Shown piece by piece: positions 1,433 through 48,321 of a DNA stretch of 64,000 bases (its first letter is position 1; every line of letters begins with the position of its first letter). Made by a program: the position numbers and the translations under genes. Under the pieces are notes generated by a model. It was not told where the DNA came from and did not search any database. It saw only the letters and a list, made by a program, of their open reading frames with translations. This stretch comes from Litorivicinus sp. Lineage in GTDB: Bacteria > Pseudomonadota > Gammaproteobacteria > Pseudomonadales > Litorivicinaceae. The stretch is taken from contig JAGYKJ010000002.1 of the NCBI GenBank assembly GCA_018401755.1, positions 62,001 through 126,000 on the forward strand, given 5' to 3'.

Positions 1433-1966
1433 TTAGGAGGCATCCGATTCGCTTGACCCGGATAGGGCTGCTAGCTCTGCCTCAATATCGACGCCTTCTT
1501 CCATCATTTGATCGCGTAAAAACTGAAGGGCAGTCAGAGGATGTTCAACTTTGAGCTCGAAACTCACAGAGTTCGCAATCTGTTGCACGGCCTGAATGGC
1601 CTGGACAGCTGTGCACTCCATGGTTTGATAACGCATGCCATAACGGAACACGACTTCGGCGTATTCTTCTGGGAGATACGACGTCACTTCGCCACTGGCG
1701 GTTTTGATCTTCATGTACTCCGATGGCTTGGGTGGCGTGGGCTTGGGCTTTCCCTCAGCAATACAGACCAAGACTGCATCGTTGTAGAGCTCGGCACCTT
1801 CCGCACCCTCGATAAATAATTTATCGATGTGGGCGCGGCAACGCAGCGCAACCTTCATTTGATACGCCTGCTCCTTCCGATCATCGCCGCGCAATGTACA
1901 GGCTTTGTCATATTCGCTCTTTGCAGTTTTACGAACGTCTGTTTTGCTTCGACCGAATAGTGCCAT
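1433..1966 (-). CDS. Hypothetical soluble protein between fliA and a membrane protein
   Basis: 177 aa, no signal peptide or membrane segment. The N-terminus is basic (GRSKTDVRKTAKSEYDKAC), the middle helical, and the C-terminus acidic and Ser-rich. Its ATG overlaps the fliA stop by one base (TGATG arrangement), and GAGGATC precedes it as ribosome binding site, so it is translationally coupled to fliA. I do not recognise it. Its position where chemotaxis genes often sit, and its pairing with the membrane protein downstream, suggest the two work together; this is inference. Confidence 0.65.
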   Translation of the reverse strand: MALFGRSKTDVRKTAKSEYDKACTLRGDDRKEQAYQMKVALRCRAHIDKLFIEGAEGAELYNDAVLVCIAEGKPKPTPPKPSEYMKIKTASGEVTSYLPEEYAEVVFRYGMRYQTMECTAVQAIQAVQQIANSVSFELKVEHPLTALQFLRDQMMEEGVDIEAELAALSGSSESDAS

Positions 1967-2688
1967 CAGTGATCCTCGTCTAGCGATAAGCGTAGCAGAG
2001 AGCGCAGCTTTTTCACGTTAGCGGTCAAAATCTGACTCACTCGTGATTCGCTAACCCCCAGCACAGCGCCAATTTCTTTTAAATTCAATTCCTCAGTATA
2101 ATACAAAGCCATGACTAACTGATCACGTTCGGGAAGTTTCTCGATTGCGGCGGTGAGCGAATCCATGAGCTCTGCATCGCTGACTTCTTTTTCGGGCTCA
2201 AACGCGTCGGTCGCAGCGACGCTGAGCAGCTCATCTTCGGCGGCCTCAGAGTCCACCATTTGCATTTGATGCGCGTGGGTGCGTTCTTTTTGGTACTCGT
2301 CGACATCTTTTCCCATGTAGTCCGCGAGCTCGGCCTGTGTCGGTGTGCGTCCTAACTCAGTGGCTAACTGCTGGGATGCGACATTGGTGTTGCGAATATG
2401 CGATACCGCGGAGCGGGGCAGCACCGAGATCCGGCGAACCTCATCCAGAATGGCCCCACGGATTCGGGTGCGTGCAAAGATTTCAAATTCAACGCCACGG
2501 CTGTTATCGAAGGATTGCGTCGCTTCGATCAGCCCAATCATCCCGACTTGGATCATTTCTTCGACATCCATGACTTGCGGAATCCGTGCGCGCAAGTGCA
2601 GGGCGGTGCGTTTCACCAAACCCATGTGAGCAAGGATCGGATCCTGCCCATTGTTTTGCACCTTGGCATACAGCTCGATATCAGCCAC
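1966..2688 (-). CDS. fliA: Flagellar sigma factor sigma-28 (FliA)
   Basis: 240 aa from GTG 2688, which has AGGAG seven bases upstream and overlaps the 3' end of flhG by 8 bases; the frame stays open further upstream inside flhG, but that extension is not FliA-like. Region 2 is clear (EEMIQVGMIGLIEATQSF, then FEIFARTRIRGAILDE), as is the region 4 helix-turn-helix near the C-terminus (LKEIGAVLGVSESRVSQI). FliA directs RNA polymerase to late flagellar promoters. Several matching promoters (TAAAG-N14-NCCGAT) occur in this window before flgM, flaG and flagellin genes. FlgM, its anti-sigma factor, is encoded at 12371-12661. Confidence 0.96.
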   Translation of the reverse strand: MADIELYAKVQNNGQDPILAHMGLVKRTALHLRARIPQVMDVEEMIQVGMIGLIEATQSFDNSRGVEFEIFARTRIRGAILDEVRRISVLPRSAVSHIRNTNVASQQLATELGRTPTQAELADYMGKDVDEYQKERTHAHQMQMVDSEAAEDELLSVAATDAFEPEKEVSDAELMDSLTAAIEKLPERDQLVMALYYTEELNLKEIGAVLGVSESRVSQILTANVKKLRSLLRLSLDEDH

Positions 2689-3508
2689 GGTCGGTCTCCT
2701 TGGTAGATTGATCCACCAATCTTTCGATAAAGAACTGTAACCCATGCGCCTTATGATCGGAAATCGGCATGATCTCAATCGCCTTAGCCAAGGCCCTAAA
2801 GTCCCGTGCAGCGCGCGAAGCGGGGGACGCTTGGAGCACGGGGGAGTATTTTCGCAATGAATCCAAGATTGCATCATCCGCTTCGATCGACGCGATGTAT
2901 TCCAGATTCACGCCCAAAAACTTAAGGCACACTGCATTAATGCGTTGATAGAGCATCTGTCCAGCGCGATGATCAGGCACCATATTGGGGATGAGCCCGA
3001 TATCCTCGACCTGATAATCCTGACTCAGTACCTTGATTGTTCCATAGGCATCTGCAATCGATGACGGTTCGTCGCGAACGACGATACCCACTTGATGGCA
3101 TGCGCGGAGAAAGGTAATCACCGATGGACTGATTCCCGCAGCGACGTCGACAATGAGATAGTCCAACGGCTTCTCGAATGTTGAAAATGCTTGAATGATC
3201 CCCTGGATTTCCGCCATCGACAGGTCAGCCATTCGCCCCACCCCGGATGCACCCGGAGCCACAAAGAGTCCAGACGGTCCCGTGACGACAATTTCATTGA
3301 GCGTTTTTTCGCCTGACACCACGTGGCTAAAATTGAATTCTGATCGAATCCCCAGCGCAATCTGGGCATTTGCCAGCCCCAGATCGGCATCAAACAGCAT
3401 CACCTGTTTGCCACTTTGGGCAAGCGCCACGGCCAGATTTGTCGACACAGTCGTCTTGCCGACGCCACCCTTGCCACTTGCGATACCGATGATGCGCAAT
3501 TTGTTCAT
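2681..3508 (-). CDS. flhG: Flagellar number regulator, MinD/ParA-type ATPase FlhG (FleN)
   Basis: 275 aa. The deviant Walker A motif SGKGGVGKTT lies at residues 12-21, followed by MinD-type features (LFDADLGLANAQIALG and LDYLIVDVAAGIS). FlhG limits polar flagellum number, antagonises FlhF and, in several species, holds back the master sigma-54 activator. It sits 28 bases after flhF and overlaps fliA, the usual gammaproteobacterial order flhA-flhF-flhG-fliA. The C-terminal stretch after about residue 240 resembles the amphipathic membrane-targeting tail of the family. I expect membrane-associated action at the cell pole. Confidence 0.95.
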   Translation of the reverse strand: MNKLRIIGIASGKGGVGKTTVSTNLAVALAQSGKQVMLFDADLGLANAQIALGIRSEFNFSHVVSGEKTLNEIVVTGPSGLFVAPGASGVGRMADLSMAEIQGIIQAFSTFEKPLDYLIVDVAAGISPSVITFLRACHQVGIVVRDEPSSIADAYGTIKVLSQDYQVEDIGLIPNMVPDHRAGQMLYQRINAVCLKFLGVNLEYIASIEADDAILDSLRKYSPVLQASPASRAARDFRALAKAIEIMPISDHKAHGLQFFIERLVDQSTKETDRG

Positions 3509-12697: not shown

Positions 12698-12724
12698 GAA
12701 TCGGCTACTTCTCAAAAAACTTTA
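12698..12724 (-). promoter_or_regulatory. Sigma-28 promoter for flgM-flgN
   Basis: The minus strand reads TAAAGTTT, 11 bases, GCCGATTC. Same spacing and -35 box as the flagellin and flaG promoters in this window. It lies 37 bases before the flgM ATG. Confidence 0.85.
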
Positions 12725-27586: not shown

Positions 27587-29546
27587 ATGGCATTAACAGT
27601 CAATACCAACGTCTCGGCGCTCAATGCGCGGCGACATACAAACGACTCGCAGCTCGATATGGCAGTGGCCATGGAGCGGCTGGCGTCTGGTAAGCGAATT
27701 AACTCTGCACGTGATGATGCGGCTGGGTTAGCGATTGCTGGGAGGATGGAGGCGCAGATCTCTGGGTTAAACCAGGCTGTCCGAAACTCTGCTGATGCGA
27801 TCTCGCTGGTTCAAACCGCAGAAGGTGCTCTCCAAGAGTATGGTGAAATCCTGCAACGGATACGTGAACTGGCGATTCAGTCTGCGGGTGGCGCACCGTC
27901 GAACTCCGACCGTGTCAACCTGCATAAAGAAGTGGAGCAGCTGCAACAGGAACTGAACCGGATTGCAACATACCACTCGATTTAACGGTGGTTTGTTGTT
28001 GAACGGGACCTTCCTTGATCAGGATTTCCAGATTGGTGCCTCCAATCAGGAAGAGATCCAGGTCAGTATCGAAGATCTTCGCCCAGAAACCATTGGAGCC
28101 TGGACGCAGACGTCTATTAGTAACGTGGGTATGGTTGTTGGGGCTGCGACTAAGACAAATATATTTTCCGCAACTTCCGCTGGTGCAACTCTGGCGAACG
28201 GCGTTGTTGCACAAACGATTACGGTTGGTGTCGGGGAAGAAACACCGCGCACGGTGGCAATTGACGCCGGTGCGAGCGCACGTGATATCGCCGATGCCTT
28301 GAACCAGTCTGGCGCCATGGTCAATAGCCGTGCAACGACAACGATTGATGTTTACTTTACAGGTGATGACGCGGATAGTGCGGCATTCACCTTTGAGCTA
28401 TCCAATAGCGCGAATCCAGATCTGACTACCACGGTGAGTGTGGGCAGTGGAACATCGAATCGCGAAGAAGCCATGGCTGCATCCATTAATGCCGGCTACT
28501 CGAGTCATAACATTTCCGCCACTGTCCTAACTGACGGCAGCGGTAATAAGTATGTTCAGATGTATCAGGCGAATGGCTACGACATCATTGTCGATGAATA
28601 CACCGCTGGTTCGACAGACATGAAGTTAAATTTTGGTGGCTATGTGGATGAGTTTGTCCTCGATGGCACCGCGGGTGCATCTGCCATCGTTGTCGGTGGT
28701 TCGATTATTCTGGATGCGCCTGAGAGCACGCTATTAACAACTACAGATACCACGAACTCTGTTCTTGTGGGCACACGTGCAGAATTATCGTTCCCAGAAA
28801 TTAATACTGTTGGTTCGAACTGGACTGGTGAAACATTTAACCTAGCTGTGGGTACCACGAGCGGAACCGAATATGTGCAGATCACGTTTGATTCCGGTGA
28901 TGCCGCTTTTGTTACGACAACACCGGCTTACGATGAAGACGATTTCACAACCATTGTGGCTCAAATTAATGCTCAGCTTGCCGCAGCAAAGAACGCTACG
29001 CCACCAACTTTGAGTGTATCTGTGGCTGCGACCTATACAACCGGCTCGGATACTCTCTCATTCGCCATCACAGATGGCGTTTCAAACTCGGATAGTTCGT
29101 TAACGATCACAGAGGCAGATGTCAATGGCCTTGGGGCAGGTACTACAGGTCTCCTGGCCGCGCTCAATATGACTGAAACTGCGACTTTCGTAACAGGCAT
29201 CGGCGGCGGTACATCGCCCACTGAAGAAGTGCGCTACGTGAGCGAAATCGATATTTCGACGCATGCAAGTGCACTGTTGGCGATGACAGTTGTGGATGCA
29301 GCCCTTGAGACTGTTGCTGCCAACCGCGCAACGCTTGGTGCTGTCGCAAACCGCTTGGAATCCACCATTCAGAACTTGATGACAACGTCCGAAAACACGG
29401 CCGCTTCGTTATCGCGAGTGATGGATGCGGATTACGCTGCGGAATCTAGTGCCTTAGCAAGAGCCCAGGTACTGCAACAGGCCTCGATTGCCATCCTGGC
29501 GCAAGCAAACGCAACTGCTCAACAGGTGCTAAGGCTTCTTGAGTAA
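27587..29546 (+). CDS. Large flagellin (about 652 aa), interrupted by one frameshift
   Basis: The N-terminal D0/D1 domain ([20 protein letters not shown], then [20 protein letters not shown]) and C-terminal D1/D0 domain (ending [14 protein letters not shown]) are clear. At about 27970 the frame shifts: the expected sequence after NRIA, a short Thr stretch and [12 protein letters not shown], resumes one frame over. Removing one base in GCAACATACC restores a single protein. The middle 300 or more residues are a Thr/Val/Asp-rich exposed insertion. AGGAG precedes the ATG, and the promoter is sigma-54-type. Being the only flagellin with that promoter, it is probably the main one, so the break may be a sequence error. 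Confidence 0.85.
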
Positions 29547-30967: not shown

Positions 30968-30994
30968 TAAAGTTTCTCATTGCGCTGCCGATCT
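30968..30994 (+). promoter_or_regulatory. Sigma-28 promoter for flaG
   Basis: TAAAGTTT, 11 bases, GCCGATCT, 25 bases before the flaG ATG. Identical -35 box and spacing to the flgM and flagellin promoters. Confidence 0.82.
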
Positions 30995-31441: not shown

Positions 31442-33356
31442 GTGACCCTATCTCATTCCGGAGATCAGACATTCGTTGATCTTCCACCGAACCTAGCTCA
31501 ACAAATTGAATTCATTCAAAAGCAGGAGTGTCCAGTCACTCGGAAGTTCTGCTCTGCTGCTCCTGGTGTCTCAAGTTCAGCCAATCTTAAGCTCACTCTC
31601 TCCACCAACGATTCGATTCATCGTCAATGCCCTAGTCAATTCAGGTGAAGATTTGTTGGCTCGCGAAATCCTCGTGAAGTTTAGTCATGCCACAAAGAGC
31701 CGTTTGTCTGAAATCGACGATGTGCGGGCGCTTGCGAATTTATGTCGAGCGCTTGGGGACGTTGAGACTGCGTACGGTCTCTACGAAGCCGCGTTGGAAC
31801 TCTTTCCCCAGCCCGAAGATCAGCGACTGCTCTTTCTCGAGATTGCTGGTGCACTTGAGGATAACGACGAGCACAGTAACGCCCTTGAGGTCTTGCATCA
31901 GTTGCTTGTTAAGAATCCTCATGATTCTGATGCGCATTCACTTGCGATTAAAATTTTGAATCGAATGAACCTTCCTGAAGATGCCAGGGTTCACGAGGAA
32001 TTTCTTGCGAAACAGGGATTACAACTGGCTCCAGAACGGATTGCGATGGGGTATTGGGCGGCAAGCAAGGCAGGCACTATCGAACGACAAGAAGAGCTGA
32101 GGGTCCGATATTTAGCCGCTCTCGATGAGGATCTGGAACGGACGAACAGTGCGCCTTTTTCAATACTTACTGCGAGCGATGATCCGAATCTTTTATTGCG
32201 TGTGCATCAAAACTTTTCACGACAGTGCACCTACAATCGGTTCGCTGCAGTGGGCGATGCGAAACAGATTCGGGTGAATGATTCTGAGAAAATTCGGGTT
32301 GTGTACCTCTCTCCAGATTTTCGGGAGCATGCGGTTTCTTATTTGATTACTGATTTAGTCGGGCTGCATGACAGAGAGAGTTTCGAGATTTTTGGGGTTG
32401 GACTCCTTCCTCCAGATACCTCAATGATTGGCGTTCGGATTCAGGATAACTTCGATGAATTCTTTGATCTCAGCCATATGCGAACTGCTGATATTGCGGC
32501 TGCGGTCCGCGCGCTCAATCCACACATCGTGGTCGATCTCTGCGGATACACGCGAGGCTTTCGTCCAAGCCTATTTGAGAGGTTTCCGCAGTCACTGGTC
32601 GTCAATTATCTGGGCTACCCCGGAACCGTCGGCTCGCCTTACCACGATTATATTTTAGGTGATCGTATAGTGACCCCTGAGGGGTGTGATTCTGATTATA
32701 GTGAACGGGTCATCCGGTTACCGTGTTGCTATCAATCCAATTCGCCATCGAGGGCGATAACTCCAGTCGATTTCCAAAAAACGGGCTTGCCAACAGATCA
32801 CTTCATTTTCTGCAGCTTCAATGGTCGGCAAAAAATGAATTTGGAGACCTTGAATGCATGGGCAGAGATTCTGGATCGTTGTCAGGACTCGATCTTGTGG
32901 TTACTTGATTGTGGGCCATCGAACAAAGATATTCTTGCGTATTTTGGTGATAAAGCGTCCCGAATTCGATTTGCTCCCAAAGCGCGCAATGCCGAGCACT
33001 TGGGCCGATTAAAACATGCACATCTCGCACTCGATACTTTCCCTTATGGTGCACATACCACTGCGAGCGATGCACTCTTCGCCGGGGTTCCAACGCTGGC
33101 GAGACTTGGAAGGAGCTTTCAATCACGCGTTTCTCATTCCATCATGACGCATGCTGGGGTGGAGTCATTATCGGCCAGCTCTTGGCCTGAATATATCCAA
33201 CATGCGGTGGATGAGTATTCAGCTTTCGAAGGCGGGGCTTCGCGTTATTCGGGCACTCTCTTGAATCTAACCAAGAGCCATCCCTACAACATCTCATTTA
33301 CCACCGCGTGTATAGAAGCAGCATTTCGAGATATTGTCAGTGAGCGCCGGGTTTGA
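31442..33356 (+). CDS. SPINDLY/OGT-type O-GlcNAc transferase (GT41), TPR N-terminus, probable frameshift
   Basis: From 31506 to 33356 a 616-aa frame holds TPR-like helices (about residues 50-200) and a GT41 catalytic region. Conserved landmarks are VVYLSPDFREHAVSYL, NYLGYPGTVGSPYHDYILGD, RLPCCYQSN, FCSFNGRQKMN and LDTFPYGAHTTASDALFAGV. The best ribosome binding site (GAGG, 8 bases spacing) precedes GTG 31442 in another frame, so one indel at about 31500-31600 is likely. GT41 enzymes attach a sugar from a UDP donor to Ser/Thr. Position between flaG and flagellin genes, and the possible sigma-54 promoter, suggest flagellin is the substrate. Cytoplasmic. Confidence 0.85.
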
Positions 33357-34293: not shown

Positions 34294-35076
34294 TTACTGA
34301 AGAAGCGTGAGCACGTATTGGCTGCTTGCATTGGCTTGGGCGAGCATCGCGGCCCCAGCTTGCTGCAGTACCTGGCCCTTTGCGACGTTTGCACTCTCCG
34401 CAGCGTAATCCGTGTCATTAATACGGGAATGTGCGGCAGCGGTATTTGCATTTAGAATCGATAAGTTGTTGACCTTGTATTCAAAGCGGTTAATGAAGGA
34501 AGCAAGTGTTCCTCTCGCAGAAGCGATGGAATTAATTCCGTCTAAGACCGCATCCGAGTCTGAGAGCAGACGTAACTGATGCCGATGTTAAAAATGTCGG
34601 AATGGTATAGGTGACTGCGCTACCGTCATATTCTTGGGCAACGACTAACGGGCCTGCAGAAACGGCTCGTCCCGTTAAACTTTAGTGTTGGTCGCGATCG
34701 CTCCAATTTCCTCAGCGAGCTGATTCATTTCGGCTTTGATATTGTCCACGTCCGTCGTGGTGTACGTCGTAGCACTCGTCTTTTGTACAGCCAGCTCGTA
34801 CATACGCGTCAACATATTTTCAACTTCCACCAGCGCACCATCTGCGACTTGCATCATGGAAATTGCGTCTTCCACATTTCGCATGGCCATTGCTGACCCT
34901 TTGATTTGTGACATGAGTCGCATTGAGATCCCTGCACCCGCCGCGTCGTCGGCAGAGGAATTAATTCGACTACCCGATGCTAAGCGTTCCATTGCAGTTT
35001 CTAGACCATCACGTGTTGTGCGAACATGATGTGCCGCCATTAAAGCTGGTACGTTTGTATTAATCACAATGCTCAT
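34294..35076 (-). pseudogene. Short flagellin, broken by at least two indels
   Basis: The N-terminal 130 or so residues (from ATG 35076) and the C-terminal 90 residues (ending LLQ at 34294) are nearly identical to the neighbouring flagellins. Near 34670 an extra base turns the expected NTKFN into NTKV-stop, and a second shift follows about 20 bases on; another break lies near 34560. Repaired length is about 260 aa. It has a good sigma-28 promoter at 35186-35212. Either a dying copy or sequence errors. Homology between copies could also cause misassembly. Confidence 0.85.
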
Positions 35077-35185: not shown

Positions 35186-35212
35186 AAATCGGTCCTACGG
35201 CGGCAAACTTTA
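35186..35212 (-). promoter_or_regulatory. Sigma-28 promoter for the minus-strand flagellin pair
   Basis: The minus strand reads TAAAGTTT, 11 bases, ACCGATTT. It is 110 bases before the ATG at 35076 and lies 108 bases from a divergent sigma-28 promoter at 35320. Confidence 0.8.
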
Positions 35213-35319: not shown

Positions 35320-35346
35320 TAAAGTTTGCCGCTTATTGACCGATTC
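35320..35346 (+). promoter_or_regulatory. Sigma-28 promoter for the plus-strand flagellin
   Basis: TAAAGTTT, 11 bases, ACCGATTC, 72 bases before the ATG at 35418. Same boxes as the divergent promoter. Confidence 0.8.
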
Positions 35347-35417: not shown

Positions 35418-36201
35418 ATGGGCATCGCCCTAAGCACGAATGCGCCTGTGCTGATACATCATGCAGAAAAAGCACGGGTCGGCTATGAAACAGCGATGGA
35501 GCGATTGACTTCAGGTAGTCGAGTCAATTCCGCTTCAGATGATCCCGCAGGTCATAGCGTATCTAGGAACTTAATGGCCCAGATTCGTGGGGCGTGACAT
35601 GGCAATTCGTAATGTGGAAGATGCCATGTCAATCATGGCGGTTGCAGATGGAGCTCTAGTTGAAGTTGAGGATATGCTCACCCGAATTTATGAGTTGTCC
35701 GTGCAGAAAGCGAACTCCAGTTACTCAGCAACAGACGTGACAAATATTAATTCAGAAATCACCCAGCTGATGAGCGAGATTGGTGATTTGGCCGCGAATA
35801 CAAAATTTAATAATGCAGCGGTGTCCGGAACAAATGTGGTGGTAGGGCAGGAATTCGATGGCTCCACAGAGGCGTACCAAATCCCCACTTTCTTGGCAGA
35901 GTCAGATCTCGATTCCTCCAGTACAGCCACTGATATCTATTCCGCCATTGGCTCGGTCTCAGGATTTCGTGGGACGCTTGCATCCTATATCAATCGATTT
36001 GAGTACAAGATTAGCGCGTTGTCGTTGTTGTCAGCGACGACTTCGGCGGCACATTCGCGCATTATGGACGCGGATTATGCGGCTGAGAGTGCAGCACTTG
36101 CCAAGGGGAAGGTACTTCAACAGGCGTCAGTTGCAATGCTTGCTCAGGCCAATGCGAGTGTAGACTATGTCACTAGCCTACTTCGATATCGGCAACTTTG
36201 A
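35418..36201 (+). pseudogene. Divergent short flagellin, one frameshift
   Basis: Starts at ATG 35418 with GGAGA upstream. The N-terminus is flagellin-like but diverged (YETAMERLTSGSRVNSASDD, then PAGHSVSRNLMAQIRG). At 35593-35597 an extra base gives a TGA; dropping it yields IRGADMAIRNVEDA, as in the other copies. The rest is intact to an unusual C-terminus ending DYVTSLLRYRQL. Repaired length is about 260 aa. Its 3' end overlaps the OGT gene on the other strand by 29 bases. It is the only short flagellin on the plus strand. Confidence 0.83.
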
Positions 36202-38150
36202 TGGCCTTCATTTCGCCGCGTAAGTAGTCTTCCACCATTGCTCGGTAGGCACTTTCGAGTTTTCGAGTGTACCCGTCAATATCATAGGGACCCCCTGGCT
36301 GAAATGTTCGCAATCCTTTTTTGATCCGATCTAAATACGATTGATTGTTATAAATAGAAATTGCCTTCTTGACGTAGTCTTCCGTCGTTCGGCAGATCAA
36401 CTCTTCCGCTCCACTGAAATGCATCAGCGAGGCTGCGACCCTTGACTGGAAATAGTTACCTTCAATCGTCAGTGTGGGGACTCCCGCGAAAAGAGCGTCT
36501 GAGCAGGTCGTGTGTCCGTTGCACGGAAAGGTATCTAGACAGAGATCAGCGTGACGCAAGCGCTCCAGATGCTTGTCAATATGAACAGGATCTGTGGTTA
36601 CCAATTGGTGGCGGGCAATACCATAGTTCGCCATGATTTTACTAAGGTCGATATCTTCCGGCGCTAGAACCCAGAGCACGGCCCTAGGACATGCGGCTAG
36701 AATTTCGCTCCAGGCTTGTATTAAGTGGCTCGGTGAATTTGGTGCAGTAATTAAAGTTGGCAAATACGAACCAGTCGTTGTTGAGCTGATGGTCTGATCG
36801 CGATGTTTGTGAACTCATCCGACGGTTAGGGTCGTTTGGTTGGTAGCAGCACGGGAGTTGAACGATATGCTCTGTGTACCATGGGGCATGCTCAAAGGGT
36901 GTGACGACAGGATCCCCGATAATATAGTCAATTGCTGATGACCCCATCGTTGCTGGGTATCCAAGAAAATTTACTTGAATTGGGGCAGGTTTTTTCAACA
37001 TGATTTCAGGGCGAGATCCTTTCGTATATCCCTTGAGATCAACAAGGATATCAATTCCGCACTCCTGAACGAGCGTTGCCGCTTCGGCATCACTCTTCTC
37101 ATGCAGCTCATGAATTTCAGTTAAATGATCTAAGATTTCTGACCGATAGCTTGTAGGGTCTTTTTTCTCTGTGAAATCAAAGCCAATAATCTCGAATTGC
37201 TCCCTGTCATGATGTTGTAGCATCGCGCGTATCAGGAACCCTGTTGCATGATGTGTAAAATCATTACTGAGGTAGCCTAGTCGGATCTTTTTGCCAATTG
37301 GTCTGTGAATCCGCTCTTTCGGAACAATCCTAAACTTTGCGGCGTTGCGTTTGTTGACGTCCTGGATGATCGCCCCATCATCCGTGAGCATTAACCATGG
37401 AAATGGTTCAATAAAATCAGGCTTGATCGATGTCAACTGACTCTTCAAAAGATCGCCATATTTTTTTGATCGCTCGAAATCTAATAGCTTAATTGAGTAA
37501 TAGTACAAGAGGGCGACATTCGTACTGGTAGGATCAATTAAAAAAGCACGTTCCATGTGGTGAAGAGCCAATTTAAATGATCCATACTGTTGCAGTAAAC
37601 CGGCTAAATTGTGATGAATAATAGGTGAATCCGGATTCAGGCTCAGCGCATCCTTAAACGCTTGAAGTCCATCTAAGATACTTCCTCGTCGATGATATGC
37701 AACTCCCAGTAAATTATGAAACTGCCATTTGCTGGGGTCATCGTCGATTGAAACGTTTGCCCACTCAATAGCCTCGTCACAAAAACCTGCATTGAGAAAA
37801 AAAGTACCGATATTCTCTGCGAAGGGCAAAAGTGTAGACATTGGCTGATGTTTTATTAGTTTTCCTAAAATTGCTCCTGCTTCTGTGTGTTTTGAGGTCT
37901 TTAAAATACACTCTACAAGAAGCAAATATGCCTGCGGCTCCGAGGATTCATCTAAGACTGCTAATCTGAGCTCAGCAATTGCGTCCTCTAGATGACCACT
38001 TTGTAGTGCACATTTTGCTCTGAGATAGCAGATTTCCCAACAGTACTTCAATTCAGATGGTAATTTGTTTAACTCTGAAAGAGCTGCATCTGGATTGCCA
38101 GACTCAATGTCTCGTTGAGCTCTCTGCAATATCTCTGGGATTTCTTCCAT
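36173..38150 (-). CDS. Second SPINDLY/OGT-type glycosyltransferase (GT41), one frameshift
   Basis: The first 480 or so residues contain TPR repeats (about 5-240, for example FHNLLGVAYHRRGSILDGLQ) and the first half of a GT41 domain (FLGYPATMGSSAIDYIIGDP, LPCCYQPNDPNRR). Near 36745 the frame shifts by one, and the second half continues with ILAACPRAVLWVL, CLDTFPCNGHTTCSDALFAG and NYFQSRVAASLM. Repaired length is about 650 aa. Like the first copy it should transfer a sugar from a UDP donor to Ser/Thr in the cytoplasm. It lies downstream of a xylose-forming enzyme gene and a glycosyltransferase, among flagellin genes. Confidence 0.85.
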
Positions 38151-38318: not shown

Positions 38319-39287
38319 TTAGATGGTTTGCTTCTTCATATTGATTAATCCTTGTAATATGCCGCGCCATTCGACGATTCGTTTTTCCCAAGTCCAAAAT
38401 CTCTTGAAGTATTGCTGTTGGTGAAATAAGTGCTCTTGATTGATTGGATCCCAGTAGTGAGCGATAGCTTTTTCAAGACCGTAGGCATAGGAATATTTTA
38501 ACGATTTGTAGTTTCTCGAAAACTGCACGAAATTTGCGTATGGTCCACAGGTCTCAGGCAGCGCGCCATAGTTTGTCACGAGCATACTCAGTCCTGACAG
38601 ACCAGCTTCAATGGCACTGACACAGGAGGTCTCAGCCCAGATGCATGGGTATGCAAATATGTGTGCGGTGCGCATACTGTCCCTGACTTCTTGATTAGGT
38701 ACGTAGCCCCGACAAGTGACACCCCGCATCTGTGATGCTCGATCAAATAACTCCGTGAAGCGGTGCTTATTTTCACGGTGAAACGTTGACCCATAGATTT
38801 CTGTTGAGGAGAAGATCTCAAGTTCAACCTCATCGTTGTCTAATAAGTTCAAAGCTATCGATGAGTAACTCGAGTCCTCGCCATGGGGTACTCACATAAA
38901 TAAGCTTAATCTTTTTACCCCGCATGTTGGCAAGGTTCTAGATTTTCCTCAATCGCATTCTGAATCACCACACAGTTATGTATTGGTAAGTCAAAATGCT
39001 CTAAATATCTTTGGAACTGCCAATGTGATACAAAAACAATGAGATCATATTGTTCCATATATTCTTTAGAGCGAAATCTGGAGACTGCAGGTTGATCCAC
39101 ATCATGGTGATTCCATAATATATTTATTTTACTGGGGATGATGCTTTTGAGGGCTCGTTTCGCTGATGATCAGGTTAATTCTATCTTGATCGATCTGGTT
39201 AAAATTCAGCTTACGCCGTAGGTTAGCCTCAACAACCTGCGTCCCTCCGGCTGGGGGCCAAAAATTCTCCGTGGGGGCAGTTGGCAT
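38319..39287 (-). pseudogene. Glycosyltransferase family 4-like, at least three frameshifts
   Basis: Starts at ATG 39287 (GGGAGA upstream): MPTAPTENFWPPAGGTQVVE. Breaks lie near 39110, 38925 and 38850. Joined pieces read INILWNHHDVDQPAVSRF, IVFVSHWQFQRYLEHFDLPI, IKLIYVSTPWRGLELLIDAL, and then the C-terminal frame with FAYPCIWAETSCVSAIEAGL and LVTNYGALPETCG. This is the GT-B pattern in which the E of ETSC and the Gly/Ala-rich turn bind the nucleotide sugar. About 320 aa if repaired. It probably adds a sugar to a glycan; the substrate is unknown. It follows the UDP-glucuronate decarboxylase gene directly. Confidence 0.72.
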
Positions 39288-39358: not shown

Positions 39359-40325
39359 TTAGGCAGCGATTTCGAGGCCGCCAACTGCGCTGTGTTTTGC
39401 AAAATAGCGAATCGTCGATTGAAGCCCTGTGAGCAAAGGGGTGCTTGGATTCCAGTTAAGCAGGGTCTGTGCCAAAGTGATATCGGGTTTCCGTTGCATT
39501 GGATCGTCTTGCGGCCTTTCTGAGTGTCGCCGGATAATTTTGGTGTCGGTTAATGCGCCAATGTATTCTGCAAGTAGATTGATGGTCACTTCCGTTGGGT
39601 TACCTAGATTGCATGGTCCTTGGAAAGTAGACGGTCCCTGCATAAATCTGAGAATCCCGTCGACAAGATCCGTGACGTAGCAGAATGACCTCGTTTGTTC
39701 GCCGGTGCCAAATATAGAAATTGGTTTGCCCGATAACGCCTGAGTGATGAAATTACTGACGACACGTCCGTCGTTGGGATGCATAAATGGGCCATAGGTA
39801 TTGAAGATTCGAGCCAGGCGTATATCTACGCTCATACTGTGCTGCATATTCACGAAAAATTGTCTCGGCGCACCGCTTCCCCTCGTCATAGCATGCCCTC
39901 GGGCCGAAACTATTAACGTTACCTAGGTATGTTTCCGGCTGAGGATGTACCTGGGGATCCCCGTATATCTCGCTAGTCGACGCTTGGAATACCTTCGCTC
40001 CACAGCGTCTTGCCAGTTCAAGAACGTTGATAGCGCCCATCACGTTTGTGTTAATTGTCATTACGGGGTCGCGCTGATAGTGGACCGGTGACGCGGGGCA
40101 CGCCAAATTGTAGATTTCTTCGAAATCATCCATACCAGAGAGCGGATACCGCACATCGTGATGTATAAACTCGTATCTTGGATGCGTTTTGTAGAGGAGC
40201 GCATGGCTGGGGTCTGATGTGTAGTGGTTGTCGATAGACACTACGCTATCGCCTCGGTCTAACAATCGAGGCACTAAGTGTGTGCCGATGAAACCACATC
40301 CTCCGGTGACAAGTATCCGTGCCAT
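39359..40325 (-). CDS. UDP-glucuronate decarboxylase (UDP-xylose synthase type), one frameshift
   Basis: The N-terminal frame has the NAD-binding motif TGGCGFIGTHL, IYNLACPASPVHYQRDPV, FQASTSEIYGDP, and the catalytic YxxxK in PRACYDEGKRCAET. Near 39842 the frame shifts and continues with RLARIFNTYGPFMHPNDGRV, GEQTRSFCYVTDLVDGI and the family signature NPTEVTINLLAEYIG. About 320 aa if repaired. This short-chain dehydrogenase family converts UDP-glucuronate to UDP-xylose. GGGAG precedes the ATG and a sigma-28 promoter stands at 40354-40380, which links the enzyme to late flagellar expression. Confidence 0.85.
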
Positions 40326-40353
40326 AATTCTGCTCCCTGTTTGCTCAAGGATT

Positions 40354-40380
40354 GAATCGGCATAAATGGGATTCTCTTTA
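40354..40380 (-). promoter_or_regulatory. Sigma-28-type promoter for the UDP-glucuronate decarboxylase gene
   Basis: The minus strand reads TAAAGAGA, 11 bases, GCCGATTC, 29 bases before the ATG. The -10 box equals that of flgM; the -35 keeps TAAAG. Confidence 0.68.
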
Positions 40381-40384
40381 GCAG

Positions 40385-40413
40385 ATAGGGCTACCCAAAT
40401 GAGATAGCCCTAT
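40385..40413 (-). terminator. Hairpin after flagellin (40438-41217)
   Basis: ATAGGGCTA pairs with TAGCCCTAT (9 base pairs, 11-base loop) between the flagellin stop and the next promoter. There is no clear T run, so termination is possible but not certain. Confidence 0.5.
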
Positions 40414-40437
40414 TCGAAAGAGATCGGCGTTTGTGTT

Positions 40438-41250: not shown

Positions 41251-41277
41251 AAATCGGCCACTGGTCGGCAAACTTTA
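41251..41277 (-). promoter_or_regulatory. Sigma-28 promoter for flagellin (40438-41217)
   Basis: The minus strand reads TAAAGTTT, 11 bases, GCCGATTT, 34 bases before the ATG. Confidence 0.85.
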
Positions 41278-41387: not shown

Positions 41388-41473
41388 GAGACTCACTCCT
41401 GCCCGCTGACATCTGGAAGCTATATGACACGCCTATCGCTCATGCAACGCCTGTTTATGGCGATCGAGAAGTT

Positions 41474-42353
41474 CTAATTGGCAGGGTAGTCGTGTAAAAG
41501 ATTCTGCGCTGCCTTTTGAGTGGCATCATTATTCGTATATAACTGATGCAAGAGCTGACGTTGCTTTTTGCATGCGGATGTAATTTCAAATCCAACTGCA
41601 TTAGCGCGAATGATTTCAAAGTCTCTATTGATTTCCGCCTCGTTTTTACGTGATGTACACCCCAACCAAAACGCAGCTCTCTGGTACTCAGTTTATCTAA
41701 AATCTGTGTCTTCCGTTTAATCATGTGCACGTTCCATGGCGCATAGCCAAAGTGTGAAAGACCATCAGCTCTAATACCCTGAAATGGCTGTCTGGGTGAA
41801 ATGACTGGTGCCGCCCAGAGGTGGTACATGCCTGTAGCACAACGATGAAAAAACGATTTCGGTATGGAGACGCCGGGAGCCCAAGGGAAACTCTGTTCGT
41901 TGAATTCCAAGAATTTCGCTATCATCAATGCCCCAATGTTTTTAGCTCTGTGGTAAGGAGCAGATCCTTTTAGGCTTCTATTTCAGGATGATTGTCGATA
42001 ACAAGGATCCCAGAGGCTGAGCATCCTTCTCGACCACTCTCGCTTCAAGCTGGATTCGATGTCACTTAAGGACATTGCTGGCATCAGGAATTCAGTAACA
42101 TTAAGACAATTTCCACCCTAGCAGATCTTTCTCATAAGTCATCACCTCGAAGTCTGTTAAATATGGGTCAAAGTGATTTAGTTGACTGCGAACCAATCGC
42201 CAATGAGGCACTGCCTCCCGGCTATAATATCACCAGAATCATCGGTCGATCCATGATCGATCATTATTCCAAAATCGAATAATTTCGAATGGTGTTTCAA
42301 CCACCAAGGCAACAAGTAGGCCTCGTTAAAAAATGGCAAATTACGCTACGCAT
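41474..42353 (-). pseudogene. Family 2-type glycosyltransferase, several frameshifts
   Basis: No long frame exists, but joined pieces read NLPFFNEAYLLPWWLKHHSK, then LFDFGIMIDHGSTDDSGDII, the start of a GT2-like transferase in which the NE and the Asp-rich turn bind the donor. Next come SQLNHFDPYLTDFEVMTYEK, a 41.5-41.9 kb stretch (FRADGLSHFGYAPW-type, then KRKTQILDKLSTRELRFGWG), and a C-terminus ending LLHDYPAN at 41474. At least three indels separate them. Nothing else was seen in the 1.9 kb from 41.4 to 43.3 kb besides this and the next gene. Substrate unknown. Confidence 0.6.
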
Positions 42354-42374
42354 GTCGTGGATTCCACCGCCGTT

Positions 42375-43605
42375 TCACATTTGTTCCATTTTAGGGAAAT
42401 AAGAATAAAATATTGACCCTTGTGGAACACCAATGTGATTCAGTTTGGCGATGATCTCTGCTTTGAAATTCCAGGCCGTTATAATGAAGAAGGTAGGTTG
42501 AGTGAGCTCTCCGCAAACATTAAGAGATTCAATCTTAACATCGATGCCAGGCGGGTATGAACCGATTTTTAGACTACTTTCATCAAGGAATCGATCTGGC
42601 CGGATCCCACAAGCATTGATAACAGTCATAGCCTTGGCTGCCGCCCAACGAACACAATGCCGAATCCCTGTAGCCGACGATGGACTACTTCTTCTCTAAG
42701 TTCCAGCAATATTTCTTTTACGCGAACACGGAATTTATCGTAAGTTTGCCAGTGAAATAATCCAATTGAAGATTCGTAATTCACGAGATCCTCGTCTATC
42801 CGAAATTCGGTATCGTCAAAAGCACGTAATAAGGAATTCATTGGTCGCGCATTTTGATGGCACAGAACAGAGGGGGCTATCTCCATGTATCTTAAATAAA
42901 AGGTATGGGCTAACTTCAAACCTACTGATTCTGCAAGCCTACTAATTGATTTAGTGTTGAAAAATGAAATATGCCTCATGATAGCAAGTATCGAACTCGT
43001 TATTGCTAAACATTCTTGCCTGCGAAGTCTGGATCAGCACAACTCCTCCTCGCTTAAGTTTTTCGCTGCACGCTTTCAAGAATATTTTGGTTCATCCACA
43101 TGCGCTAAAACGTTCATACATACGATAGCGTCAAACTTGTGTCGTATCTTGTAACTTGCGTCTGGCCAATATCCTTGAATGATAGGGATGCTATTCATTA
43201 TTGCCTTTTTCACAATATTTTCCGCTGGATCCATTCCATGCAGTCAATGCCCACTCTTCGCATTTCTACAAGTAGGCTTCCGTCATTAGAGGCTAGCTCT
43301 AAAACCCTGCCTTTCGGCGGTAGGATAGTTAGCAGTGATTCGGAGAACGCCTTGAAAAATCGACGGAGGGTATCCGAGGTGCCGCTAACATACCTGTAAT
43401 TTGAGAATATTTTTCTCCGATCGACACAAAATGTTAACTGAGCGTGCCAACAGTCCGCGCATATGTTTAGTGCGAGCGGATATTCCTCTCGGGAAGTTTA
43501 ACATTTTCTAAAATTGTTTGCGGGTGGCTGGGTTCCAAGGGGTCTAGGATGGTCCTTAAATTGGCCGAACCTGCAACATAGGCATTTTTGCAGGAAACGG
43601 TTCAT
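42375..43605 (-). pseudogene. Sugar C-methyltransferase-like (zinc-binding N-terminus), several frameshifts
   Basis: Starts at ATG 43605 with GGAG upstream. Pieces in order are a Cys-rich N-terminus (KCLCC), EEYPLALNICADCWHAQL, YVSGTSDTLRRFFKAFSESL, a SAM-binding region LLTILPPKGRVLELASNDGS, FDAIVCMNVLAHVDEPKYS, MRHISFFNTKSISRLAESVG, and the C-terminal domain with FFIITAWNFKAEIIAKLNHI. This order matches C-methyltransferases that act on nucleotide keto-sugars. At least four indels break it. It implies a branched deoxysugar in the glycan, if functional. Confidence 0.65.
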
Positions 43606-43799
43606 ACAGATCTCCGTATATTCGAATTATAGTGGTCTATAAAATCATGGCATCTCTGATCAAAAGAAATATGCACAAGATCGTTCTTGCAAAGAGCTTG
43701 CATCCGAGAGGTATTCATAGTGAAACTATATCGAATCAGTGGACTCTTGGTCTACCACGGTCGCCCCCCATACCCTCGCGATATTAAAATGCTAAGTCA

Positions 43800-44522
43800 C
43801 TAATGGTCGAGGACAGACTTCCGACGATTAAAGATACTGGTGCTTGGTCGGTAAGCAGGAGCTTCTTTACCAAAACCCAAGAGATCGTCGAGATATAAAA
43901 TCGTGCGCCAAGAATTGCTATTCCTTAAATTCACATAACCGCGCTCTGAGGCAGAAATATTCATCGCATTAAAACAAGCTCCGGTCTCAGGTTCGACTAT
44001 AGCCAGAAACGGTTCCCAGGCGAAGCGTGTAGAAGTTTGACAGAAAGTTGTTGGCAAGATAGTCAAAGCGAATTTTGAAGCATCATATGCATTTGAGACT
44101 GACTTGTAATTATAGTTCCTTCATCGGCCGGCTCCATGTGCAAATTTTTGTTGAATAGATGGATCCTGCTGAGGCATAAATTAGTTTGGTACCAGGTTTA
44201 AGCTGCTTTGCGAAGAAGGATAATAAATTAAGACAGTTATTAAGTAATGCGCCTTGAGGGTCTCCTACAGATCGAGAGCACGCTTGAGTGACTGCAAACC
44301 AAAGCACACTATCAAAATTCTTAAGATATTTGCTTTGTAATTCATTGTAGTTTCTTTTATAATTTCGATGTTAGTGGATTTCTCATCTAGCCTATCGACG
44401 ATAGTGACGGGCCACCCTTCTTTTTTGAGCTGACCATAAATATAGGATCCAATATACCCGCACCCGCCAACTAATAGAATTTTTCGAAGCGCAGTTTCTT
44501 CTGGGGGAGCTTTGAATTTCAC
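43800..44522 (-). pseudogene. NAD-dependent sugar epimerase/dehydratase, several frameshifts
   Basis: Starts at ATG 44522. The first piece carries the Rossmann motif LLVGGCGYIGSYIYGQLKKE. The next has VTQACSRSVGDPQGALLNNC and LIYASAGSIYST, and a third NAMNISASERGYVNLRNSNS followed by WRTILYLDDL, the usual late motif of these enzymes. Breaks lie near 44280 and between 44070 and 44130. The exact reaction cannot be told. The 195 bases from 43606 to 43799 may hold the C-terminal end; nothing clear was seen there. Confidence 0.62.
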
Positions 44523-44576
44523 AAGTTATACCTATCTCCATGATAATTCTTCGGTAAGAATTTTTAACCCAAGCAA

Positions 44577-45150
44577 TCAATGAAACATTTTAAATTTGTT
44601 TTTTATCATTTCAACGTACATGCTATCAACTGCGCGTGGCAGTCGACAAATATCACCAAGAGAAAAACCTTTGTCCTTAATAAGGTCTTTACCGTAGTCC
44701 GAAAGAATAAATTCTAACTTACCGGTGATAAGTTTATAGTCAAACCAATTGAGATACCATGCCCATTGATCATAGTAGATCCAAGAGTTTTCGTTAAAAG
44801 CTCTAACGTGTGTTGGATCTTGCCAAGCCCCTAAGGGATAGATCATAGGGTACATGGATCTTAAGAATTCCGTGGACTTTTAATAGTGATTTAAGGTTTG
44901 ACATTGTTGTGACTAGGTCGGCGACATGCTCCGAGCACGTCAAATACGAGGATTTCATCAGCGATACCGGTGTAAGGGCCATTGGACCAAGCCTAGTATA
45001 GAAAATTTCCGTTGGAAGATCTTTTGATATATCGGCAACAATATCAGGGTTCGTGAACGCTTGAATGTCAACGTTCAAACATTCTTCCCGAAATCTTTGC
45101 CAGACCTGATGTTTATGATCATTATTGTGCCTCTGAAAATAAATTTGCAA
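44577..45150 (-). pseudogene. SAM-dependent methyltransferase-like, frameshifted
   Basis: Two overlapping frames meet near 44850. The upstream piece has ECLNVDIQAFTNPDIVADIS (a motif I pattern LNVD), YLTCSEHVADLVTTMSNLKS and GILKIHVPYDLS. The downstream piece has LGAWQDPTHVRAFNENSWIY. Together they match class I methyltransferases often found in polysaccharide clusters. The start is unclear because the region 45150-45360 is also broken. Substrate unknown. Confidence 0.55.
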
Positions 45151-45159
45151 AATCGGGCC

Positions 45160-46220
45160 TATGGATTTTGATCCAAGCCATTGCGTCTTGATGAAGCTTT
45201 TGATGGTTTTGCCCGGACTGTTTGTGAGGCCAAAGTGATGACGGTATGCGGTAGATACGGAAATGGCGTAACCCTATACTATCCATATCTAAACACTGGA
45301 TGTCATCGGAGTACCAATTAATAGGCGGAAATCAATCCAGCAGTCGAGGAGCAATCAGTCCTAATACTGGGGAGATAACTGGGACTTGAAAGACTTTTCC
45401 TCCGATTCGAATTTTAACCCATTAAAGCACGACTGTTCCCAGTTATAGCGAATATTCTGATGTAGCCTAATATAGTTAGACCTTGCAGCCAACCACCCAA
45501 GCTCGAAGTCTGAGTCTATCAAATGTTTGGCAATCAAATAATCATTATACATCTTAATTATAGTATCTTTTCAGAAACTATATCATCGTTCATTCAACAT
45601 CAAATACTTCGGGGTAAGCCTCCTAGCCATAGAAACAAGTTGATTGTAGGCGTCGCTAAAATTATCGGAGTTATTTACCATTAAAAATGTATTTCGGATT
45701 GGGATATGAGAGGGCATTTCATTCAGAGGGACGCTTATGATGAGTGTTATATTCGGATTGAAAATACTTAGTGATGTGAGGAGCAATTCGAGATTCGACT
45801 TCGATAGTGATGCGACCAAAAATATAGTGTTTTCATCACTTGGCCCTCCTGATGGGATTACATTTGTCTTGTATACTACCTTCTCATGGCTACCGTCCAT
45901 TTCTAAGTTCTCCTAGTTCCACACCATAGTAGCTGGGTATGATAGGCAATCCAGGCGCCTCGAGATATTTAGAGACCTCTTTGTTTTGCCACTGAATTTT
46001 GCACATTGGTTCTTGGCTCACTAATTCGAAAGTTATGCGGATTCCAGATGTCTTAACTCCCGGTTCTGGAGTTCTCATACGATTTGCGCGGTCAAACCAA
46101 ATGCCAGCACTTTGCTTCGCGCGAAGGATTAGCGCGAAGGATTTGTCGGGCTGTCACATCCGTTGTTATTGAGCGCGCAACATGAAATGTTGTCGTACTC
46201 ACTATGCTGTCAAAACTCAT
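45160..46220 (-). pseudogene. Unrecognised protein, possibly glycosyltransferase-like, broken by a 13-bp duplication and further indels
   Basis: Starts at ATG 46220 with GAGGAAAG upstream. After MSFDSIVSTTTFHVARSITT the frame is broken by a tandem 13-base duplication (46119-46144); removing one copy joins it to GIWFDRANRMRTPEPGVKTS and the beta-rich piece ending near 45890. Further pieces (FLVASLSKSNLELLLTSLSI; DFELGWLAARSNYIRLHQNI; IGLRHFRIYRIPSSLWPHK) follow in other frames to about 45160. I do not recognise the family; the middle looks like a Rossmann-type nucleotide-sugar fold. It is the first gene of the minus-strand sugar block and has a sigma-54-type promoter. Confidence 0.45.
46119..46144. 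repeat. 13-bp tandem duplication (GCGCGAAGGATTA unit)
   Basis: GCGCGAAGGATT occurs at 46119-46130 and again at 46132-46143. Deleting one 13-base unit restores the reading frame of the minus-strand gene, so this is a recent frame-breaking duplication or an assembly error. Confidence 0.8.
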
Positions 46221-46385: not shown

Positions 46386-48321
46386 TTGGCTAGAAACCTT
46401 GTTCTTGTGGTTGATCATTGCGGCGGTCCTCTTGACCGTGTTCAACAATTTCAGCGTTGAGACGCAGTCTCAACAGGTCAACTACTCGCAATTTGTTGAC
46501 GAAGTGAACCGCGATCAGATCCGTCGCGTGGTGATTGACGGGCAGTCCATTATCGCAACGCGCTCGAATGGCGATGTGTTTGAGACTGTGCGGCCAACGA
46601 TTGCCGATCCTAGGCTGATGGATGACCTTCTCGATCACAACGTGATTGTGGAGGGTAAAAACCTGAGCAGCAGTCCATCTGGATGCAGCTCTTAGTGGCT
46701 AGCTTCCCGGTACTCATCATCCTCGCGATTTTCATGTTCTTTATGCGCCAAATGCAGGGAGGCATGGGCGGTGGTCGCGGTGGTCCGATGTCCTTCGGTA
46801 AATCCAAAGCACGCTTGATCGGCGAAGATCAAATCAAGACCACCTTCGCCGACGTGGCGGGATGTGATGAAGCCAAGCATGATGTTCAGGAGCTCGTCGA
46901 GTTTTTGCGCGATCCCGGAAAGTTTCAGAGGCTTGGCGGTCGTATCCCTCGTGGCGTCTTGATGTCGGGGCCTCCAGGAACGGGTAAGACGTTGCTCGCA
47001 AAGGCGATTGCAGGCGAAGCCAAGGTTCCATTTTTCACGATTTCAGGATCTGATTTCGTGGAAATGTTTGTCGGTGTGGGTGCGTCTCGTGTCCGCGACA
47101 TGTTTGAGCAAGCGAAGAAGCAAGCGCCTTGCATCATCTTTATCGACGAAATCGATGCCGTTGGCCGGCAACGTGGTGCCGGTTTGGGTGGTGGTCATGA
47201 TGAGCGTGAGCAGACGTTGAACCAGTTGCTTGTGGAAATGGATGGTTTCGATGTCAATGATGGGGTGATCGTGATTGCTGCCACCAACCGTCCTGATGTG
47301 TTGGATTCCGCATTATTGCGCCCAGGTCGCTTCGATCGTCAGGTGGTCGTTGGCCTTCCAGACATTCGTGGACGCGAGCAGATCTTGAAAGTGCACATGC
47401 GTAAAGTGCCGATCTCTCCTGAAGTTGAGCCATCGCTCATCGCTCGCGGGACTCCTGGATTCTCGGGTGCTGATCTTGCGAACTTAGTGAATGAGGCTTC
47501 TTTATTTGCCGCTCGCTCGAATACACGCGTTGTGACCATGACGCACTTCGAGATGGCAAAAGACAAGATCATGATGGGCGCAGAGCGCAAGTCCATGGTC
47601 ATGAAGGAATCTGAGAAGCGCAACACCGCCTATCACGAAGCGGGCCATGCCATCGTCGGGCGCTCGATGCCAGAGCACGATCCCGTGTACAAGGTGTCAA
47701 TCATTCCGCGCGGTCGCGCATTGGGTGTCACGATGTTTCTGCCTGAAGAGGACAAGTACAGTCATTCGAAGCGTGGGTTAATGAGCCAAATTTGCTCACT
47801 CTATGGTGGTCGGATTGCTGAGGAACTCACACTTGGATTCGAAGGCGTGACGACGGGTGCGTCCAATGACATTCAGCGTGCAACCACGATCGCCCGCAAC
47901 ATGGTCGACCAAGTGGGGTCTGTCTGAAAAGATGGGGCCGCAGATGTATGACGACGAAGAAAACGAACCTTTCTTAGGTCGCTCCATGAGTCGTCCAGCC
48001 CATGGGCAGTCCGATGAGACTGCGCGCGAAATCGATGCGGAAGTGAAGTTGATTCTGACCACCTGTTATGACCGGGCAAAAGAAACCCTGGTTGAAAACA
48101 TGGACAAGCTGCACTTGATGGCCGAGGCACTCATGGAATATGAAACCGTTGATGCAAAGCAGATCGATGACATCATGATGGGTAAGCGCCCACGTCCACC
48201 AGAAGGTTGGGATGATCGCGATAAGCCCACGGGTGGAGAGTCTACTGATGATTTATCAGAAGCAGATCCGGCGCCTCCTGAGACCGGCGCATCATCGGAC
48301 GGTCCTGCGACGCAACACTAA
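46386..48321 (+). CDS. ftsH: Membrane AAA+ zinc protease FtsH, three single-base indels
   Basis: TTG 46386 with GGAGA upstream gives [20 protein letters not shown] after removal of one T near 46405. A missing A near 46657 (GGTAAAAACC) separates the periplasmic domain from the second membrane helix ([20 protein letters not shown]). An extra G near 47907 separates [12 protein letters not shown] from what precedes. In between are Walker A (GPPGTGKT), Walker B ([13 protein letters not shown]), the SRH region and the zinc site HEAGH. About 644 aa if repaired. FtsH degrades membrane and regulatory proteins and is normally essential, so these breaks look like sequence errors. Confidence 0.93.

Follow-up and report, generated by a model that had tools for sequence, protein, structure and literature searches.

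A UDP-xylose synthase-type gene preceded by a probable sigma-28-type promoter in a flagellin island of Litorivicinus

The flagellin glycan of Pseudomonas aeruginosa PAK includes pentoses and hexuronic acids, and a pentose in a flagellin glycan therefore has precedent (PMC3958885). The A-type flagellin glycosylation island of the same strain is polymorphic and carries flagellin sugar genes, features that it shares with the locus described here; the available portion of that account mentions no GT41 enzyme, UDP-xylose synthase (UXS) or link to sigma-28 (PMC3958885). In Caulobacter, flagellins are modified in the cytoplasm by the TPR-glycosyltransferase FlmG, which, like the GT41 enzymes of our locus, has a TPR N-terminal domain; its own glycosyltransferase domain is of the GT-B type and its donor is pseudaminic acid (PMC7591256), whereas the enzymes reported here match GT41. 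A non-exhaustive search of the open-access literature found no tie of a UDP-xylose synthase to flagellin, and yielded nothing usable on sigma-28 control of flagellin sugar genes. The parts of the system are known, and their combination is apparently new, at least to us.

For the UXS enzyme itself, the closest described protein is human UXS1 (PDB 2b69 and 4gll). The two proteins share their sequence family, the TSE and YxxxK motifs and a C-terminal DDP..RKPDI stretch; unlike UXS1, the enzyme reported here is bacterial, is encoded within a flagellin island, and has its frame broken in the assembly. The window that we analyzed is a stretch of 64,000 nucleotides from Litorivicinus sp. (contig JAGYKJ010000002.1), a small-genome bacterium, and its features are collected in Table 1.

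Table 1. Positions, in the window, of the features discussed in the text.
Feature	Position	Strand	Remarks
fliA (sigma-28)	1966..2877	-	Lies in the window
Further flagellin gene	27587..29546	+	Upstream of fliD; frame broken
First TPR-GT41 enzyme	31506..33356	+	Intact; downstream of flaG and the flaG sigma-28 promoter (30968)
Flagellin, 257 aa	33467..34240	-	Intact
Flagellin	34294..35076	-	Frame broken; sigma-28 promoter at 35212
Flagellin	35418..36201	+	Frame broken; sigma-28 promoter at 35320
Second TPR-GT41 (OGT-like) enzyme	36173..38150	-	Frame broken near 36.7 kb; Glyco_transf_41 in both pieces
GT4-like glycosyltransferase	38319..39287	-	Frame broken in several places; Glycos_transf_1
UXS, second frame, 176 aa	39359..39889	-	C-terminal substrate part; ORF and structure matches
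UXS, first frame, 190 aa	39753..40325	-	NAD site, TSE and YxxxK; ORF and motifs
Putative sigma-28-type promoter of UXS	40380..40354	-	TAAAGAGA-N11-GCCGATTC
Two-step hairpin behind flagellin gene	40370..40425	-	-35 kcal/mol (z -3.95), equalled by none of 200 shuffles
Flagellin, 259 aa	40438..41217	-	Intact; upstream of UXS; own sigma-28 promoter at 41277
Sigma-28 promoter of the 259-aa flagellin	41251..41277	-	TAAAGTTT-N11-GCCGATTT; near-perfect
Sugar-cluster remains	41455..46078	-	C-methyltransferase, GT2-like, SDR epimerase-like and unassigned fragments, all broken
ftsH	46399..48321	+	Adjoins the island; frame changes at least twice

The UXS enzyme and its neighbors

The UXS coding stretch (39359-40325) consists of two overlapping ORFs with one frame change between them, near 39.84 kb. 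For both halves the best match among solved structures is UXS1, annotated as 'UDP-glucuronate decarboxylase 1' (E values of 4.5e-49 and 1.2e-41), far ahead of the next-best solved protein (4.6e-17 and 4.3e-16), and over its full length the protein matches characterized UXS better than other extended SDRs. The NAD site GxxGxxG, the catalytic TSE and the YxxxK motif are all present, and their roles are presumably those known from work on UXS1 and ArnA. A first-pass annotation, made from the sequence alone, had named the gene a UDP-glucuronate decarboxylase, and these matches bear it out. We are thus highly confident of the enzyme family; UDP-xylose would be the predicted product.

For comparison, 165 UXS loci were picked by their TSE motif, a few of them being counted twice; the NAD site is present in 159 of these, and YxxxK in 164. 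At 10 of 126 near-invariant positions the window enzyme has a different residue; the 165 other loci average 1.7 such departures, and 7 of them have at least 10. It is a divergent member of its family, and the number of departures could reflect weakened constraint or a changed substrate. In named genomes, the closest relatives among the best 80 of the matches listed come from many phyla and share 54–64% identity over the N-terminal half; no relative above 64% was found among these 80, nor in 369 genomes. Regarding the substrate, one nucleotide-sugar dehydrogenase in the genome, encoded on contig 6, scores over the cut-off. The model that fits it best is the UDP-glucose 6-dehydrogenase TuaD, at a score below that model's own cut-off; this enzyme could supply UDP-glucuronate.

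As had been stated in the first pass, the GT4-like gene and the second OGT-like gene follow UXS on the same strand, and we note that each of them is also frame-broken. The GT4-like gene was joined from its pieces by reading of the sequence: Glycos_transf_1 is matched just over the cut-off at 38319-38852, and the pieces at 38915-39100 and 39129-39287 show no domain match. The first GT41 gene, which lies behind flaG on the same strand, may belong to the late class as well. In the cluster upstream of the 259-residue flagellin, Methyltransf_14 and Epimerase are matched over the Pfam cut-offs, and Methyltransf_13 and GT2 below them. The two intact flagellins of the island (257 and 259 residues) are each other's closest relatives.

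A sigma-28-type site before UXS

The first-pass annotation had reported a sigma-28-type site before UXS, with a -10 equal to that of flgM, and both statements agree with what we found. The full string is TAAAGAGA-ATCCCATTTAT-GCCGATTC, with ATCCCATTTAT as the 11-nt spacer, and it includes a TAAA -35, a CCGAT core in the -10 and a leader that runs to the start codon: 28 nt separate the end of the -10 from the UXS ATG at 40325, and GGGAG precedes this ATG. At other late promoters the corresponding gap is 24 nt (flaG), 33 nt (the 259-residue flagellin), 36 nt (flgM) and 38 nt (fliS), and it reaches 71 and 109 nt at the remaining two flagellins. The flgM promoter, at 12724 on the minus strand, has exactly the same -10 (GCCGATTC). 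When the genome was searched for TAAAGAGA-N9..13-GCCGAT, the UXS site was the sole match. Elsewhere in the genus, -35 endings other than TTT are found at a flagellin of genome G012 (TAAAGAGC) and at the fliS of the present genome (TAAAGAAG). FliA is present in the genome, its gene lying within the window itself.

How far the site exceeds chance depends on the yardstick. Against the textbook 16-base sigma-28 consensus, with simulated sequence for comparison, the UXS site matches at 11 of 16 bases, and sites with exactly 11 number 30 in the window versus 27.6 in the simulation; by the textbook consensus alone, the score of the UXS promoter is no better than chance. In the same scan, sites that contain both TAAA and GCCGAT number five in the window, the UXS site included, and none in ten simulated windows. 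A loose core, TAAA-N16-CCGAT, gives 23 matches in the genome versus 14 in the reversed control. The tight core of late flagellar promoters across the genus, TAAAG-N15-CCGATT, in which the end of the -35 is left free, gives 6 versus 2, and on this genus signature the UXS match does go beyond chance. Indeed, the other five matches in the genome lie at flgM, at three flagellins and at fliS, the last outside the window and identified by Pfam FliS (1.8e-36).

Over 15 genomes of the genus, that of the window included, the signature has 52 matches versus 12 in the control. In six genomes that represent other families of this order the counts are 11 and 13, so that among the genomes compared the signature is enriched just within the genus. 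Translation downstream of 33 of 63 signature places gave FliS-, flagellin-, FliD- and FlgM-like starts, and also other proteins or nothing recognizable. The core is not exhaustive, since the flaG promoter at 30968 and the promoters that precede flaG in genomes G004 and G012 do not fit it. A weight matrix derived from 13 late promoters of the genus, which is partly circular because this training set was picked by TAAA...CCGAT, gives the UXS site 19.8 bits, sixth in the window behind five training promoters, where the 13 training promoters themselves range from 14.2 to 26.4 bits in leave-one-out scoring. A single one of 1,999,946 random positions scores as well as the UXS site under this matrix. 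Control by sigma-28, as first proposed, is thus well supported by computation, through the genus signature and the position of its five other matches at late flagellar genes; the UXS promoter is very likely real, and presumably active.

A conserved small protein (..ERPWWE..) is encoded behind a signature match in several genomes of the genus (L215, L223, L225, L226 and L237), and is possibly the product of a new late gene.

UXS in other genomes and its possible role

Of 21 other genomes of the genus, several of which are incomplete, two contain a true UXS gene, and neither gene lies beside a flagellin; a third genome, G006, has a possible match of 32 residues. In genome G018, of the same genus, UXS lies beside a Wzy_C (O-antigen-ligase-type) gene and a gene of the UDP-glucose/GDP-mannose dehydrogenase family, in what looks like a polysaccharide locus, and the open-frame arrangement in genome G008 is similar. 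More widely, flagellin was found in reach of UXS at 1 of 80 named loci (up to 10 kb on each side, some cut by contig ends), and at none of 80 class-level loci (up to ~9 kb on each side, many cut by contig ends, the shortest being 3.4 kb). The class-level set represents 80 of the 82 places other than that of the window, the remaining two (G299:C222 and G395:C25) being long fused frames, and the flagellin profile, which was home-made, could miss a divergent flagellin. The link between UXS and flagellin is not conserved.

The one named locus with a flagellin belongs to a Thermodesulfovibrio MAG, in which flagellin, Maf, an unassigned gene and UXS follow each other within 6 kb (L033:3450-9350), with UDP-GlcNAc-2-epimerase, cytidylyltransferase and other nonulosonate-type genes further on. 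As in the window, UXS has a flagellin gene nearby, here at a distance of ~3 kb, and it is next but one to the Maf flagellin glycosyltransferase; unlike in the window, Maf takes the place of GT41 and the strand is opposite. No sigma-28 core match was found before this UXS.

Computation shows the family and motifs of UXS, the match of its promoter, the setting in an island, and the presence of fliA and of a nucleotide-sugar dehydrogenase. From these we lean, by a little, towards an explanation in which the UXS gene is read with the late flagellar genes and its product supplies a pentose for flagellin. Transcription of UXS would start at its own sigma-28 promoter, with read-through from the flagellin gene as a possible second source; the dehydrogenase encoded elsewhere in the genome would oxidize UDP-glucose to UDP-glucuronate; UXS, with its frame whole in the cell, would decarboxylate UDP-glucuronate to UDP-xylose at the time of flagellin synthesis; and one of the cytosolic transferases encoded in the island (GT41 or GT4) would attach the pentose, or a derivative of it, to flagellin prior to export. 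Since flagellins, two GT41 genes, a GT4 gene and a C-methyltransferase gene surround UXS, a flagellin glycan, as suggested in the first-pass annotation, is the most likely destination of the xylose, and a pentose on flagellin is plausible, with chances that we judge about even.

Alternatively, UXS could be a decaying remnant with a relic promoter, and the whole island at 34-46 kb a glycan cluster that was acquired and whose function is being lost, which we consider unlikely, but worth serious attention. Besides UXS, the GT4-like gene, the second GT41 gene, two island flagellins and the entire cluster at 41.4-46.1 kb have broken frames, open frames of 200 codons are absent from kilobases 42-45, and UXS has more departures at near-invariant positions than most of its homologs. 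The cluster upstream of flagellin, which is the most broken, is also A+T-rich (GC 0.40-0.44, with 0.53 for core flagellar genes and 0.50 for UXS). However, the ftsH gene by the island is also frame-broken; it is the only FtsH over the family cut-off in the genome and ftsH is essential in E. coli, so that assembly indels are the simplest cause. The UXS halves, in addition, carry no stop beyond the single frame change, and their catalytic motifs are intact. This frame change, which the first-pass annotation assumed could be repaired, is probably an assembly error, and UXS is more likely than not a working gene in the cell, where its frame would be whole. Genes whose frames are broken in this part of the assembly call for checking before they are taken for pseudogenes. 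A programmed frameshift in UXS was rejected, since the homologs listed in the genus and class-level searches have no inner stop in the matched part.

It is improbable, in our view, that the UDP-xylose (or UDP-4-keto-pentose) formed by UXS is destined for LPS or capsule and that the gene is merely placed among flagellar genes. The surroundings of UXS in G018 and the similar arrangement in G008 would suit such a role, as would the finding that 159 of the 160 UXS loci tested have no flagellin found in reach, but the late-flagellar-type promoter and the neighborhood of flagellin and GT41 genes argue against it, and no polysaccharide polymerase or export gene was recognized among the window proteins scanned, which represent part of the window ORFs. 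We give still less credit to the promoter match being a by-product of the hairpin at the 3' end of the flagellin gene, with UXS read only as part of the flagellin mRNA or from some other, unrelated promoter. The hairpin is strong and the AAAGAG of the UXS -35 (40379-40374) sits in its 3' arm, a match of 11 of 16 to the textbook consensus is ordinary, and a hairpin that lacks a T-run need not stop transcription. Indeed, no T-run follows, and a terminator scan found no terminator-like site on the minus strand, so that read-through from flagellin into UXS is possible too; Rfam gave no match at 33-47 kb. However, a hairpin accounts for neither the exact -10 nor the 11-base spacer, all five other signature matches of the genome lie at late flagellar genes, and read-through from flagellin would itself place UXS in the late class.

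If UXS does serve flagellin, UDP-xylose would join the donors used for flagellin, and the flagellar sigma factor would make the supply of a sugar nucleotide coincide with the synthesis of flagellin. A more specific proposal, which we regard as a long shot, is that flagellin is O-xylosylated in the cytosol by the GT41 enzyme whose gene lies behind UXS, with UDP-xylose itself as the donor. Donor synthesis, transferase and acceptor would in that case be brought together in one late burst under sigma-28, and the upstream fragments of a C-methyltransferase and an SDR would suggest that a branched or methylated sugar is added on top.

Flagellin neighborhoods in the genus

The region at 31.5-46.1 kb looks like a variable flagellin-glycosylation island, with sugar and transferase genes next to flagellin genes that vary between relatives. 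Near the flagellins of other genomes of the genus we found GT41 and NeuB (G004), a TPR-sulfotransferase (G009), and radical-SAM and TPP-dependent enzymes (G012), and the single proteins scanned near flagellins in G001 and G015 are unassigned or TPR-only. The first-pass annotation had called a nucleotide-sugar enzyme in the late flagellar class unusual; a sugar gene in a flagellin island is not unusual per se. In G009, the TPR-sulfotransferase gene lies directly upstream of flagellin (L110:633-2540) and could encode an enzyme of flagellin sulfation. Giant flagellins are also found in relatives within the genus, with open frames of ~1,600-1,700 codons and others of 665-956 codons (L103, L104, L109, L111 and L114).
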